Shown: positions 6,536 to 33,231 of the stretch, in pieces
Layout: the number at the start of each line of letters is the position of its first letter
How positions within the stretch are numbered: the first letter of the stretch is position 1
Assembly (NCBI GenBank): GCA_018969605.1
Contig: JAGWXY010000016.1
Coordinates: 1-35,221 of the forward strand
Source: Verrucomicrobiota bacterium
GTDB lineage: Bacteria > Verrucomicrobiota > Verrucomicrobiia > Verrucomicrobiales > Akkermansiaceae
DNA length: 35,221 nt
Reading direction: 5' to 3'
The notes under the pieces: model-generated
What the model saw: the letters and a program-made list of their open reading frames with translations, nothing else
Databases searched by the model: none
What the model was told of the DNA's origin: nothing
Translations under genes and position numbers: made by a program

Positions 6536-6686
6536 GGTGGGTGAGGAAATTTTTGGGTCTTTTTTCCTTGTGCCAGATCCGTCGTCTGGTTCCCTCGCGG
6601 CGAAATTTGCCGGTGGTGATGATTTCCGGCAAATTTCGGCACACAAAACGCTAACCTGCGGCCGACTGGCTGCACCGACCAAGACG

Positions 6687-20637: not shown

Positions 20638-22932
20638 TCAAAATTCATCGAATGCGATGTGTTCTTTGTCAACGCCCATTCCCTCGAGCATGGTGCGCGC
20701 GGCTTGGATCATCGGCTGCGGTCCGCAGAGGTAGTATTCCACGGCCGCGGGGTTGGCATGATTGCCGAGGTACTCGCGGCGCAGCACTTCGTGGATGAAG
20801 CCGGTGTGCGAGGTCCAGTTGTCTTCGGGCAGAGGCTCGGAGAGTGCGACATGGAACTCGAAGTTCTCGAACTTGCGTGCGAGGTCCTCGAAGTATTCCT
20901 GATAGAAAACCTCCTGCCTCGAGCGAGCGCCGTACCAGAAGCTGACCTTGCGTCCGGTCTGGAGCGTTTCGAAGAGGTGTGAAAGGTGCGAGCGCAGTGG
21001 AGCCATGCCGGCACCACCACCGAGGTAGACCATTTCGTTTTGCGTTTCCTTGATGAGGAAATCGCCAAAGGGTCCGAAGGCCTTGACCGTGTCGCCGGGC
21101 TTCAAGTTCCACACATACGAGGACCCCACGCCGGCCTTGCAGTCCTGGCCGCGCGGCGGGGTGGCGATGCGGACATTGAACCGCAGTTGCGTGTCCTTGT
21201 CGGGGTTGGTCGCCAGCGAGTAGTTGCGCCGCAACTCCGAGTGGTTTTCGGTTTCGTAATCGAAAACATGATTGGCTCTCCAGACCGCGTCGTAGGGTGG
21301 GCGGATCTTGAAACTTTCGAATGAAATTTTGCCGTAGGCGGGAATCGCCATCTGGATGTACTGACCTGCCTGGTACTTGAGCTTTGGCGAATTTGGCAGC
21401 GGCTCGAGGACGACCTCCTTGATGAAGGTCGAGACATTCTCATTGCTGACGACGCGGAATTCGTAGGTTGTCGCGGCTTGCTTGGCGCCGATGCCGCCGG
21501 CCTTGTACACATTCATGAAGATGCGGCCATCGCTGATGCGCACCGGATAAGTTTTGAGCGCGACGCAGACCGGCGGGCGTTGGGTGGATCCGTCGCGCAC
21601 ATCGAAGCGGCCGTTGTGTTTTGGGCATTCGATGAGGTTGCCTTTCACCAATCCGGTGGCGAGGTGGGTGTTGCCGTGCGTGCAGATGCCGTCGGTGGCG
21701 TAGTATTGGTCCTCGCCCGAGCGATAGACCGCATAGGTGGCACCTCCATAGTCGAAGCGCAGCACATCCTCACGCAGCAGCGAGTCGGCAGGCGCGACCT
21801 CGATCCAACCTTCGGCATCGGCAATGCCGGTGGAAACCACGGTTTTTGCCGCCTCGTTCGCCGCCGAGCGCACCGTTGGGGTCGGCAGTTTGCGTTTCAC
21901 GAAATAGCCGGGGTCCTTCACCTGACGAAGCACGGCCGGGATGATCTCACGCCACGCGTCGAAGAGGCTGCGGTAGGGCGTGGGCATGTCCTCTTTCACC
22001 ACCTCGTGGAGTCGCGGCAGGTTGTGATAAGGCACCAGCGGGAACATGTGGTGTTCGACATGGTAGTTCATGTTCCAATACAGGAAGCGATTGATTGGAT
22101 TCATGTAAACCGTCCGGCAGTTCATGCGGTGATCGAGCACATTCTCCGCAAGACCGGCGTGTTGGGTGAAACCATAGATAGGCATCAGCCATGCACCGAG
22201 GAGGTTGGGCAGGCCGATGTAAAGCAGCGGCAGGATGCTGCGGTAATAAATGCATGCGGCGATCACCGCGACATAGATCAGCAGGCTGATGCGGGCCTTG
22301 AAATAAATCGTGGGACGCGCCGACTCGGGGATGTAGGTGGCTTCTTCTGCATCGAGGCTTCCCGCAGCGTGGCGAAACACTTTTTTGAAATACGCGATCG
22401 CTGCCGGATAGCCGAGAAATGCGGTGATGAATGCCTTCATGTCCGCCGGGCGTGGCACGGCGATTTCCGGATCACGACCAACGACGATCGTGTCGCTGTG
22501 GTGGCGGGTGTGGCTCCAGCGCCAGACGGTGCTTTCGCGCATCACCATGAACGATGAAATTTCATAAAGCACGTTGTTCATCCAATCGCTTTTGAAGGCG
22601 GTGCCGTGGCTCGATTCGTGCCAGCGAGAATCGGAGGTCGTGCCATAGATGACCCAGTAAATCATGAACGGGATGAGCGCCCACGCGCTGGGCCAAAGCA
22701 GAAAAGCGGCGTAACCCGAAACTCCGAGCAACGCGAACCAGATGATTGTATCGCGGATCGCCGGGCCGTTCTTGCGCTCGAGCAATTCGCGCATCACATC
22801 GCGCGGAACGGGACACTGATACCACTCGGCCTCGGCGAGGCCTTTTTCGACAGCCAGTTTGGAATTCACCCCGACGAGGCTGTAATCGCTCAGTTGGTGG
22901 GGTTTCGCTTCGGGTTCGGCAATGGCACTCAT
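20638..22932 (-). CDS. Fused MocD-type desaturase/hydroxylase + Rieske ferredoxin + NqrF-like reductase
   Basis: Three modules are fused in 764 residues. Residues about 35-345 are a membrane di-iron desaturase/hydroxylase with hydrophobic helices and the histidine boxes HESSH (105-109), HTRHH (141-145) and HVEHH (291-295), plus H258; the run TVWRWSHTRHHSDT and GRDPEIAVPRP recall MocD of rhizopine catabolism. Residues about 375-475 are a Rieske [2Fe-2S] domain: C417-x-H419, sixteen residues, C436-x2-H439. Residues about 488-764 match the FAD/NADH part of Na+-NQR subunit F: RNYS (569-572), GGGAGMAP (638-645), FWYGARSRQE, EDNWTSHTGFIHEVL and YLCGPQP (734-740). NqrF's own plant-type [2Fe-2S] domain is absent. 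The protein thus seems to be a self-sufficient NADH-dependent oxygenase. In Rhizobium the three activities (MocD, MocE, MocF) are separate. A lipid desaturase is the alternative reading. Start ATG 22932. Confidence 0.9.
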   Translation of the reverse strand: MSAIAEPEAKPHQLSDYSLVGVNSKLAVEKGLAEAEWYQCPVPRDVMRELLERKNGPAIRDTIIWFALLGVSGYAAFLLWPSAWALIPFMIYWVIYGTTSDSRWHESSHGTAFKSDWMNNVLYEISSFMVMRESTVWRWSHTRHHSDTIVVGRDPEIAVPRPADMKAFITAFLGYPAAIAYFKKVFRHAAGSLDAEEATYIPESARPTIYFKARISLLIYVAVIAACIYYRSILPLLYIGLPNLLGAWLMPIYGFTQHAGLAENVLDHRMNCRTVYMNPINRFLYWNMNYHVEHHMFPLVPYHNLPRLHEVVKEDMPTPYRSLFDAWREIIPAVLRQVKDPGYFVKRKLPTPTVRSAANEAAKTVVSTGIADAEGWIEVAPADSLLREDVLRFDYGGATYAVYRSGEDQYYATDGICTHGNTHLATGLVKGNLIECPKHNGRFDVRDGSTQRPPVCVALKTYPVRISDGRIFMNVYKAGGIGAKQAATTYEFRVVSNENVSTFIKEVVLEPLPNSPKLKYQAGQYIQMAIPAYGKISFESFKIRPPYDAVWRANHVFDYETENHSELRRNYSLATNPDKDTQLRFNVRIATPPRGQDCKAGVGSSYVWNLKPGDTVKAFGPFGDFLIKETQNEMVYLGGGAGMAPLRSHLSHLFETLQTGRKVSFWYGARSRQEVFYQEYFEDLARKFENFEFHVALSEPLPEDNWTSHTGFIHEVLRREYLGNHANPAAVEYYLCGPQPMIQAARTMLEGMGVDKEHIAFDEF

Positions 22933-25300: not shown

Positions 25301-26173
25301 ATGAAAGATGACTCCATGCGTTGCTACGAGGCCGACCTCACGCGCCTGCTCTCGCGCTTTGCCACGCGCCCGCCCAAGGTGGTGATTCCCGAAATGATAG
25401 CGCTGCATCGCCGCAGCCCGGGTGCGCACTTCCATGCCTTTCCCGAGTTTTTTCTGCAGACCGGTGGCGCCAGCGACTTCGTGTGTCCGGGCGGCAAGTT
25501 TCGTCTCAAGCAAGGCGATATTTGCATCATGCCTGCCGGTGTGGCTCATGCGGAGAGTCCGGTCGATCTGCGCAGCCGCTATGGCATTCTCGTGCTGATG
25601 CAGAACATCGACCATGTCACGCTGCTGCGTGGTGCGAGTGATGCGAAGAGAAACATCAGCAGCACGCAAGTCACCCAACTGCCACTGCCGACGCGCGCCT
25701 TCGATTGCCTCAACACCGCCTGCGAAAGCACTGCGATACGCCGCTCCTTGCGCGGTGCGTTCATCAACGGCTGCGTGCAGTCCTTTCTCGCATCGGTCCT
25801 CACCGCCCTGCGCCAGCCCGCGCCCGTGGCTTCGCTGCGCGGATCACCGCTCGTTGCCGAGGCGGAAAAACTGGTGCGCGTCGACATCTCATTGCCCGAT
25901 TTAAGCGTGGCCTCGCTGGCGGCTCGGCTCGGCTGTTCGCCCGATCATTTGGCGCGATGCTTCCGCCACGAGCATGGGATCACACCCGCCGCATGGATCA
26001 CCAAAGAACGCATCGATCTTGCCTGTGAAATTCTCGCACGCATGGACCGCAACATTTCCGAAGTCGCGTGGAGCTGCGGCTTCGTGACGCCCTCATATTT
26101 CATCAGGGTCTTCCGCAAGCACAGGGGCATGACCCCGCTTGCTTGGCGTCGGCTGCATGGCGTTAGGGCGTAG
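25301..26173 (+). CDS. AraC-family transcriptional regulator
   Basis: The C-terminal part (about residues 190-285 of 290) has two helix-turn-helix units: DLSVASLAARLGCSPDHLARCFRHEHGITPAAWI and ISEVAWSCGFVTPSYFIRVFRKHRGMTPLAWR, the AraC signature. The N-terminal part has a cupin-like ligand domain (GAHFHAFPEFFLQTGG, GDICIMPAGVAHAE), the type that binds sugars or similar ligands. Starts at GTG 25229, ATG 25301 and ATG 25316 are possible; I chose 25301 because the upstream text overlaps the dyad. Divergent from the ThuA-like gene, so it probably controls the sugar-oxidation set through the dyads described here. Ligand unknown. Confidence 0.88.
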   Translation: MKDDSMRCYEADLTRLLSRFATRPPKVVIPEMIALHRRSPGAHFHAFPEFFLQTGGASDFVCPGGKFRLKQGDICIMPAGVAHAESPVDLRSRYGILVLMQNIDHVTLLRGASDAKRNISSTQVTQLPLPTRAFDCLNTACESTAIRRSLRGAFINGCVQSFLASVLTALRQPAPVASLRGSPLVAEAEKLVRVDISLPDLSVASLAARLGCSPDHLARCFRHEHGITPAAWITKERIDLACEILARMDRNISEVAWSCGFVTPSYFIRVFRKHRGMTPLAWRRLHGVRA

Positions 26174-26515
26174 GAGAGAGGGGGCGAACATTGAACATTG
26201 AACATCGAAGTAGAAGAGCATCAAGAAGCCGATGGGGTAAAAGCTGAAATGAAGAGGTCAGAGGTCAGAGGTCAGAGGTCAGTATGAAAAAGCCGCTTCT
26301 TCATGTAGCTGGGACATCCTGTCCCAGGCCGTCCTTGGAGCATCTTGCTCCAAGTTTTGTGGCGTCAAAGAGGAAGCTGCTTGCTCTTTGACGCTGCTCC
26401 CTTTTGATGCGGCAGAAGAGCACGACAAGAGTGTCGTGCCTCCTCAGGAAGTCTGTTCATTCTCCTCTACTTCGATGTTCGAAGTTGGATGTTCGATGCT
26501 CACCACCTCTTCTTT
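26174..26515. repeat. Hairpin-array element between two regulator genes
   Basis: A 342-base stretch without genes. GAACAT-type 7-base words sit on both ends in opposite orientation (26186-26210 and 26469-26498). The outer arms 26200-26218 and 26462-26480 pair at 18 of 19 positions. Between them come four GAGGTCA copies (26254-26281) and four perfect hairpins: CTGGGACA/TGTCCCAG (26309-26327), CTTGGAGC/GCTCCAAG (26334-26354), GCGTCAAAGAG/CTCTTTGACGC (26362-26394) and GCACGACA/TGTCGTGC (26420-26439). No promoter or coding frame is evident. Confidence 0.7.
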
Positions 26516-27523
26516 TCATTCCACTTCACTGCCGTGCAGCAGTTTCGATGCGGCGGATTTGCCGAGCTTTTGAAAATCGATGTCGAGTCTTGAGCTGGGG
26601 GAATGGATCAGCCCCGTGCCTTGGGTGGCGAGGAGCAAGAGTTTGTTTGGCGGGTTGCCGACTGATTCCATTTTTTCCAGCAACGCTTTGGCGGTGTTGT
26701 CCTCGGGGCAGATGAACAGGGTTTTGCCTTCGGTTTTTTTGGCGCTGCCCGGGCGGATGCGGCGGCGCGCTTGATCGAAGCTGGTCTTGTGCGCGTCGAG
26801 GTGGGCGAAGGTTTGCAGGATCAATGATACGGATGCATCGATGGCGGGGTCGCCTTGAAAGGGGGATACGACCAGAATTTTTTTTGCGTCGTGCGATTGG
26901 GCAAATTGCAGGGCGCGCTTGGCGGTGCCGTGATAGTCCGGCGCGAAGACCGGCATGTGCTTGGTTGATCCGTGAAGCAACTGGGCTTTGGGGGTGATGA
27001 GGGATGCGCTCAGTGCGAGTGCGGAATCTTTCCAAAGGTGGTCGAAGAGGATGGCGCCGCAATGACGCGGGACCGATGGCAGCAGCGCGGCGAGTTCTTT
27101 TTTCTGCGTGGCAGCGCTTGCGAAATCGGGCGGCTTGGTCGGGTCGTCCTGACTGACGAGTGAGGGCGCGGAGAGCAGGATCAGCGGGCTGCCATTGGCC
27201 GAGCAGACTTCGGAAACGCCCTTGAGGATGTCTTGGTAGAGGCGGCTCCAGTGCCACATTTCGCGGCCAATGAAACAAACCGGGGCACCCTTGAGGTTGT
27301 GGCTGCGTCCGGCAACGGGGAAGTACCTGCCGCCGGGGCTTTGCCAGACGAGGCCTTCGTTTTCCATTTCGCGCAGCATGCGTGACATCGTCGAGGCATG
27401 CAGGTCCCAACGCGCGCCGAGTTCGCGCACCGTGGGCAGTGCCGACTCGGGCGGCAATTGGCCGATCAGGTCGGCGAGGGCGGATCTTGCCTTGCAGGCT
27501 AGCAGGGTGGGTTTGCGCGGCAC
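26516..27523 (-). CDS. GntR-type regulator with LacI-like sensor domain
   Basis: The product has an N-terminal winged helix of GntR type (KARSALADLIGQLPPESALPTVRELGARWDLHASTMSRMLREMENEGLV) and, from about residue 70, a periplasmic-binding-protein-like sensor region (VCFIGREMWHWSRLYQDILKGV ... VFAPDYHGTAKRALQFAQSHDAKKILVVSP) of the LacI/RbsR sort. Such chimeras respond to sugars. I chose GTG 27523 as start: the only earlier in-frame option is a TTG at 27613, and the winged helix usually starts near this point. With the shorter start, the palindrome 27554-27575 lies upstream as an autoregulatory operator. Divergent from the amino-sugar operon it presumably controls. Ligand unknown. Confidence 0.82.
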   Translation of the reverse strand: MPRKPTLLACKARSALADLIGQLPPESALPTVRELGARWDLHASTMSRMLREMENEGLVWQSPGGRYFPVAGRSHNLKGAPVCFIGREMWHWSRLYQDILKGVSEVCSANGSPLILLSAPSLVSQDDPTKPPDFASAATQKKELAALLPSVPRHCGAILFDHLWKDSALALSASLITPKAQLLHGSTKHMPVFAPDYHGTAKRALQFAQSHDAKKILVVSPFQGDPAIDASVSLILQTFAHLDAHKTSFDQARRRIRPGSAKKTEGKTLFICPEDNTAKALLEKMESVGNPPNKLLLLATQGTGLIHSPSSRLDIDFQKLGKSAASKLLHGSEVE

Positions 27524-33190: not shown

Positions 33191-33231
33191 AAAAACCCCC
33201 GACTCGGATTCGAGTCGGGGGATTTTTTTTA
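33191..33231 (+). terminator. Perfect intrinsic terminator of rplI
   Basis: CCCCCGACTCG (33196-33206) and CGAGTCGGGGG (33211-33221) form an 11-bp perfect stem with the loop GATT, followed by A and eight T (33223-33230). Upstream A-run makes it partly bidirectional. Clear rho-independent terminator. Confidence 0.95.

Follow-up and report, generated by a model that had tools for sequence, protein, structure and literature searches.

The 342-bp gap between two convergent genes in the window, by which we mean the whole stretch of 35,221 nucleotides analysed, is most probably an intergenic, BIME-like mosaic of REP sequences built by separate insertions (probability of about 0.85). Hairpins 1 and 2 of the array (Table 1) would together be one isolated terminal repeat, of a type that delimits a lineage of REP-associated tyrosine transposases (RAYTs) found in frame inside ispG. 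Hairpin 4 would likewise be an isolated repeat, with a GGAG tag, of a type seen at the ends of another RAYT lineage, which is free-standing. The repeats occur in many copies with shared edges, their stems carry compensatory changes, their layout recurs at RAYT ends, and related species hold them at different sites.

Table 1. Features of the convergent gap, in positions of the window.
Feature	Position	Strand	Basis
Convergent intergenic gap, repeat mosaic	26174-26515		own-genome matches cover parts only, the locus itself excepted
GAACATT heptamer array, 3.4 copies; left outer arm	26186-26209	+	TRF
AGAGGTC (= GAGGTCA) heptamer array, 4.3 copies, 100%	26253-26282	+	TRF
Two-hairpin REP-type repeat, about 56 bp: GTAG, hairpin 1, G, CCGTC, hairpin 2, TTTTG	26305-26359	+	own-genome matches, edges, pattern
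GTAG tag	26305-26308	+	GTNG in pattern matches
Hairpin 1, 8 bp, loop TCC (3)	26309-26327	+	perfect stem, covariation
Hairpin 2, 9 bp, loop TCT (3); terminator-like, TTTT after	26334-26354	+	perfect stem, covariation, terminator scoring
Hairpin 3, 11 bp, loop 11	26362-26394		perfect stem
GGAG-tagged REP-type repeat: AGGAG, hairpin 4 (26420-26439), TCTTC	26415-26444	-	own-genome matches, tag, pattern match 26418-26444 (minus)
TTCGATG heptamer array, 4.0 copies; right outer arm, inverse of left	26471-26498	+	TRF

The Gap and Its Four Hairpins

The interval singled out by the first-pass annotation coincides exactly with the space between an AraC-family gene (PF12833), which ends at 26173, and a minus-strand ORF of 365 aa, which ends at 26516. 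Both had been described as regulators facing each other; the convergence and the AraC-family gene stand, and for the 365-aa ORF a regulatory role is suggested only by winged-helix matches below the Pfam cut-offs. Positions 26309-26439 (131 nt) hold four perfect stems of 8, 9, 11 and 8 bp, the second of which (26334-26354) had been counted as 8 bp. Their density is, as claimed, far beyond chance: when the 131 nt were shuffled 2000 times with dinucleotides preserved, 1945 of the sequences lacked any such stem, 53 contained one, 2 contained two, and none contained four. The entire window contains 10 such perfect stems; strong ones elsewhere lie at 6601-6638 (13 bp, loop of 12) and 33196-33221 (11 bp, loop of 4).

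BLAST of the window's own genome with the full region returned 67 matches, and the locus itself was the only one of full length. The partial matches fall on the stretch of hairpins 1 and 2, on that of hairpin 4 or on the GAACATT arms. The exceptions to such single-module matches are a few that run from hairpins 1 and 2 partway into hairpin 3 (on contigs C133, C52, and C76); at C35:6479-6572, hairpin 4 and the right heptamer arm come one after the other as they do in the gap, so some modules may move jointly or lie side by side. Hairpin 3 was rejected as a dispersed repeat, since BLAST of the region found its whole length nowhere else in the genome and the matches extending into it (C76:8111-8163 and C133:2780-2872) are partial. 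By comparison with genome G014, it could possibly be a templated quasi-palindrome.

A Two-Hairpin Repeat

Positions 26284-26360 gave 22 BLAST matches in the own genome, the locus included, with the consensus GTNG, hairpin, n, nCGTC, hairpin, TTYTG. In the 16 of these 22 copies taken into the edge analysis, information measured in blocks of ten bases climbs from 0.74 to 1.69 at GTNG and drops from 1.21 to 0.57 past TTYTG, so the unit measures about 56 bp and has sharp edges. The pattern GTNGCTGG-N11-CCAGNCCGTC matches once in the window (26305-26333), 21 times in the own genome and 43 times in G026, and it was found in 20 of 41 genomes of the same genus, against 0/41 for the reversed pattern. 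Among the 149 listed matches (42 of them from G026, compared with 43 by full count), the tag, in which G, T, and the final G are prescribed by the pattern, reads GTGG in 109, GTAG in 32, GTTG in 5, and GTCG in 3, and all four inner pairs left free by the pattern are standard in 140. The surroundings of the copies vary, some being translated in frame inside coding genes, and in G014 and G013 the closest copies sit in different surroundings.

These recurrences weigh on the reading of the array as an ordinary bidirectional terminator, or a transcription barrier between convergent genes, kept for that use. Although the convergent setting suits such a role and the stem at 26334-26354, with the TTTT that follows, is terminator-like, scoring for a GC-rich stem with a T run yielded one site, against 0.4 (sd 0.6) in shuffles, and none on the minus strand; a locus-specific terminator also does not account for units that recur at many places, even in frame in coding genes. 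We consider it improbable. The first-pass annotation had kept an ordinary terminator for the case of no other copies and no covariation, and both copies and covariation were found.

In an alignment of 27 copies from the own genome and relatives, 97.5% of the cells are paired and 10 of 17 pairs are altered on both sides; 0/500 shuffles scored as high on any of five measures, and slid structures reached at most 43.5% paired. The extraction pattern, which kept 28 copies (L087 was omitted, its stem 2 being offset), fixed CTGG, CC[AT]G, and CGTC. Since the outer letters of stem 1 were thus fixed, the free evidence lies in the inner pairs and in all of stem 2; with identical rows counted once there are 24 distinct copies. 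The copies of some genomes share one set of inner letters (9 of 11 copies in G005, 33 of the 42 counted in G026), and these letters differ between genomes with the pairing kept.

Conserved pairing through sequence change had been offered as the sign of an RNA. The compensatory changes in stems 1 and 2 are indeed strong, but a DNA hairpin read by a RAYT predicts equal covariation. The copies lie in varied surroundings and are in part translated, the region has no Rfam match at gathering thresholds, and no sigma-70-like promoter was found in 26100-26600; a structured noncoding or cis-regulatory RNA is therefore very unlikely. Any Rfam RNA was rejected, the only Rfam match in the window being a tRNA.

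A GGAG-Tagged Repeat

Hairpin 4 belongs to a second dispersed family. It reads on the minus strand as CTGAGGAG, an 8-bp stem, a CTCT loop (4), the stem again, and TCTTC. The segment 26400-26460 has 16 matches in the own genome, the locus included. The pattern AGGAG-N5-ACA-NTYN-TGT-N6-C occurs in 23 of the 41 genus genomes, and its reversal gave two matches in all. Among 50 distinct matches of this type, taken from genomes other than G006, all five free pairs are standard in 29, four in 18, and three in 3. The free-standing RAYTs of G031, G003, G032, G005, and G035 carry a hairpin of this type at one or both ends. In G031 (L122) both flanks show the stem GCACGACA/TGTCGTGC, the same as that of the window, and L112, L118, L126, and L127 are similar. 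With its type at both ends of a RAYT, hairpin 4 is a RAYT-associated repeat in the wide sense; it is not a GTAG-tagged REP, as GGAG stands ahead of the stem in 12 of the 14 own copies extracted. By eye, some of the RAYTs bounded by this hairpin adjoin genes resembling ffh and miaA.

The idea of a mobile miniature element was accordingly right as to kind, in that two multicopy families with common edges are present, and wrong in supposing a single unit where there is a mosaic: hairpins 1 and 2 and the GGAG repeat recur with the same boundaries, while the outer arms are not element ends and hairpin 3 as a whole has no second match in the own genome.

Heptamer Arrays and Outer Arms

TRF found three arrays of period 7 in the window, all inside the gap. 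The four tandem copies of GAGGTCA reported earlier are confirmed (Table 1), and the outer arms of 19 bases pair at 18 positions as described (26200-26218 with 26462-26480); the repeat search lengthens them to 40 nt at 83% (26185-26224 and 26456-26495). The right arm has 29 matches in the own genome, the locus included, and by their coordinates the members of the family stand singly, in direct pairs (C67, C140, C147), or in inverted pairs (C60, C124). What looks like an outer inverted repeat is thus made up of two opposite copies of a dispersed heptamer array, and the arms were rejected as the ends of one element. A composite miniature transposon (MITE) forming one unit between the arms is, for all their pairing, the least probable reading: apart from the locus, none of the 67 own-genome matches extends across the whole region, even the longest of the partial matches include one or two modules, and the arms do not recur there as a pair around the same inside.

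Loci fetched with the REP queries also carry unrelated heptamer arrays (GGTCATT, GTTTCAA, TTTCTGC, AAATCAG, GAAAGCG, and others). Period 7 accounts for 44 of 91 TRF rows from 70 loci, a sample biased by the 29 loci that had been fetched with a heptamer query. In intergenic DNA of the own genome (L003, L006, L008, L024, L028, L055, and others) we observed many tandem arrays of unrelated heptamers. The heptamer arrays are a repeat class separate from the REP-type hairpins. Heptamer tandem arrays in intergenic DNA are known from the STRR sequences of cyanobacteria. TAACTGA heptamer repeats have been described in Beggiatoaceae (PMC4679880). The arrays of the gap are like both in their seven-base units and intergenic position and differ in that many unrelated heptamers occur per genome, mixed with REPs.

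Comparison with Described REP Families

Several traits link the repeat of hairpins 1 and 2 to the GTAG-tagged REPs, REPtrons, and BIMEs described in PMC3733652 and PMC2817692: a short, perfect stem with a loop of 3 bases carries a GTAG/GTGG tag on one side, the copies are numerous and their stems have undergone compensatory change, and two inverted copies enclose a RAYT gene, as they do here at the insert in ispG, both in the own genome and in several relatives. The gap shares with them the intergenic and convergent position, and Opitutus terrae, of the Verrucomicrobia, is described as rich in GTAG-type repeats with GTGG variants (PMC3733652). Unlike in those systems, the unit here consists of two hairpins joined by nCCGTC, the tag of hairpin 4 is GGAG, and the RAYT that carries the repeat of hairpins 1 and 2 lies in frame inside ispG. 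Hairpin 2 follows the letters CGTC, as do the CGTC-tagged REPs, whose stems of 8-9 bp start with A/T pairs and enclose loops of 4-5 bases and which the relevant section of PMC3733652 describes without a RAYT. We do not assign hairpin 2 to them: its stem has 9 bp, but its loop has 3 bases and its first pair is C-G, and it occurs at a RAYT, always joined to a GTNG hairpin. According to PMC3733652, the RPE of Rickettsia and intragenic REPs are likewise short palindromes in frame in genes, whereas here a whole transposase lies between the palindromes inside the host frame. The sections on described REP families in the accounts consulted mention neither the two-hairpin unit nor the GGAG tag. It is well supported that the gap is a REP/BIME mosaic of a known kind, set apart by description through these two features.

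RAYT Transposases Embedded in Housekeeping Genes

The transposases were identified as RAYTs by an HUH motif, a catalytic Tyr, and similarity to TnpA-REP (PDB 4er8, E 1.4e-9); against NCBIfam NF047646 they score 57.7-75.9 bits, below the cut-off of 80. Across this genus of Verrucomicrobiota, whose nearest named records are MAGs of Akkermansiaceae and Verrucomicrobiaceae, they include gene-specific lineages in frame in ispG and metH, each forming one clade, as well as RAYTs in leuS; some relatives lack them or show what appear to be in-frame scars. Six RAYT matches were obtained in the own genome. Among the five listed, the one on C36 (200 aa) stands free, and the two-hairpin repeat occurs about 190 bp beyond its end; four lie in frame in leuS (L009/L103), metH (L104), ispG (L105), and alaS (L106), with the host frame open on both sides and the HUH and Tyr motifs kept.

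The ispG insert of the own genome has the layout of hairpins 1 and 2 at both ends, inverted, tags outermost, and translated. This layout recurs at the insert ends of relatives, where the second hairpin is decayed or different in some. The inner letters at the own ispG-RAYT ends are AGCG/CGCT, those of the window copy GACA/TGTC, and those of the own dispersed copies mostly AGCA/TGCT (10 of 21) or ATCA/TGAT; because of this difference, the present ispG RAYT may not be the direct source of the window copy or of the dispersed copies. G002 and G012 hold 18 and 10 copies of the pattern, yet have a short ispG without RAYT, and G011 and G028 have the RAYT and no pattern match.

Among the matches listed for 59 genomes, 71 of 150 RAYT rows lie in an open frame of at least 400 aa. 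A comparison of stop codons between embedded and free RAYTs (0/71 against 7/79) was dropped as circular, since a stop shortens the measured frame and the row becomes "free". The fetched loci yielded 124 distinct RAYT domains, 37 of them with flanks from a named host (ispG 14, leuS 12, metH 9, alaS 1, and valS 1; for R041 the host was assigned by hand as valS in place of leuS), and HxH and YxxxNP are kept in 37/37. In a tree of 76 of the 124 domains, picked by host match or a score >225, the ispG RAYTs form a single clade (99/91), as do the metH RAYTs (99/88), and the leuS RAYTs need three changes; all host labels together need 11 changes, compared with 40.1 in shuffles.

At the leuS site, 24 of 30 loci could be classed, six having no anchor: nine hold a RAYT, seven a 48-residue linker, and four short in-frame inserts, and the state of four is ambiguous. 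By eye, the short inserts (G007, G001, G026, and G006; L222, L234, L227, and L246) are repeat remnants. At the ispG site, 22 of 30 loci were classed and eight lacked an anchor; 11 hold a RAYT, eight are short without remnant, and three (G007, G014, and G018; L261, L262, and L264) keep what by eye are remnants of the RAYT terminal repeats. A single leuS match was found in each of the 36 genus genomes (of 41) that had any, so no leuS other than the RAYT-fused one was seen in the own genome, which is 98.7% complete. For metH, distances between RAYTs follow those between their hosts (9 rows, Spearman 0.60, a value equalled or exceeded in 42 of 2000 permutations); for ispG (11 rows, 0.02) and leuS (11 rows, -0.19) they do not. 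RAYTs may possibly have been exchanged at the same site in ispG and leuS; saturation could also blur the signal. In an AlphaFold model of the LeuRS-RAYT fusion, the host fold was not obtained (mean pLDDT 59, pTM 0.33, 449 of 1060 residues below 50), and the RAYT part (about residues 421-600) has block means of 65-89.

Frames of at least 400 aa occur in 21 of 80 named loci. Among the 16 scanned, the hosts are leuS, valS, metH, a RarA-like ATPase, and recF, six (L176, L177, L180, L186, L188, and L203, from other phyla) are large proteins weakly like BREX or DUF1156 methyltransferases, far below the model cut-offs, and in three no host was found. Further relatives contribute two carB hosts, a TPR protein and, in L113, an HsdR-like protein. 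A link of the RAYTs in the BREX- or DUF1156-like and HsdR-like proteins to defence loci is possible.

Inteins and homing endonucleases occupy one fixed site per host gene, in frame, with presence and absence among relatives. The embedded RAYTs are like them in these respects; unlike inteins they are HUH tyrosine transposases, and protein splicing is not proposed. We tentatively suggest, at somewhat short of even odds, that they are lineages persisting as in-frame internal domains of single-copy housekeeping enzymes, at one fixed site each in ispG, metH, and leuS, with a lineage of their own for ispG and metH and a few lineages for leuS. Any mutation that broke the RAYT frame would also destroy the host enzyme, and the RAYT would be protected in this way; it would re-enter the same site in other genomes in a homing-like manner, leave in-frame scars on loss, and spread its terminal repeats into intergenic arrays like that of the window, whose hairpins would be footprints. 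A specialist would find the embedded RAYTs the surprising part. No published account of in-frame RAYTs was found in the open-access literature searched, and a few unexpectedly long proteins were discarded as gene fusions or annotation errors in the survey reported in PMC6006769. The persistence of such repeat populations over millions of years is posed as an open problem in PMC8049555. One answer to it could be tested directly with RAYTs in frame in leuS, ispG, and metH, where close relatives have the same site empty, filled, or in a scar-like state.

Possible Origin of the Array

E. coli TnpA-REP processes single-stranded REP in vitro (PMC8266576). By analogy with this known chemistry, the HUH tyrosine enzyme would recognise tag and hairpin on single-stranded DNA, cut there, and spread the repeat, and RAYT-driven transposition would have brought the repeats into the gap. 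The stems would be retained since the enzyme requires the fold, and selection on the host enzyme would shield an embedded RAYT. RAYT lineages with different tags could then drop solo repeats into one gap, and the locus illustrates how a dense hairpin array is possible without a single element. The array need not be of use to the neighbouring genes, and any weak termination at it could be incidental. The window copy has no empty counterpart among the relatives: of 38 searched, one had a match to the flanking 365-aa gene, at 32%.

Two further proteins were noticed. A second, longer IS200-like Y1 protein (L010-L016; 415 aa in L016) was seen at eight places, several of them at contig ends. Within the window, positions 20638-22932 encode an ORF of 764 aa that by eye resembles a fusion of fatty-acid desaturase, Rieske, and ferredoxin-reductase parts.
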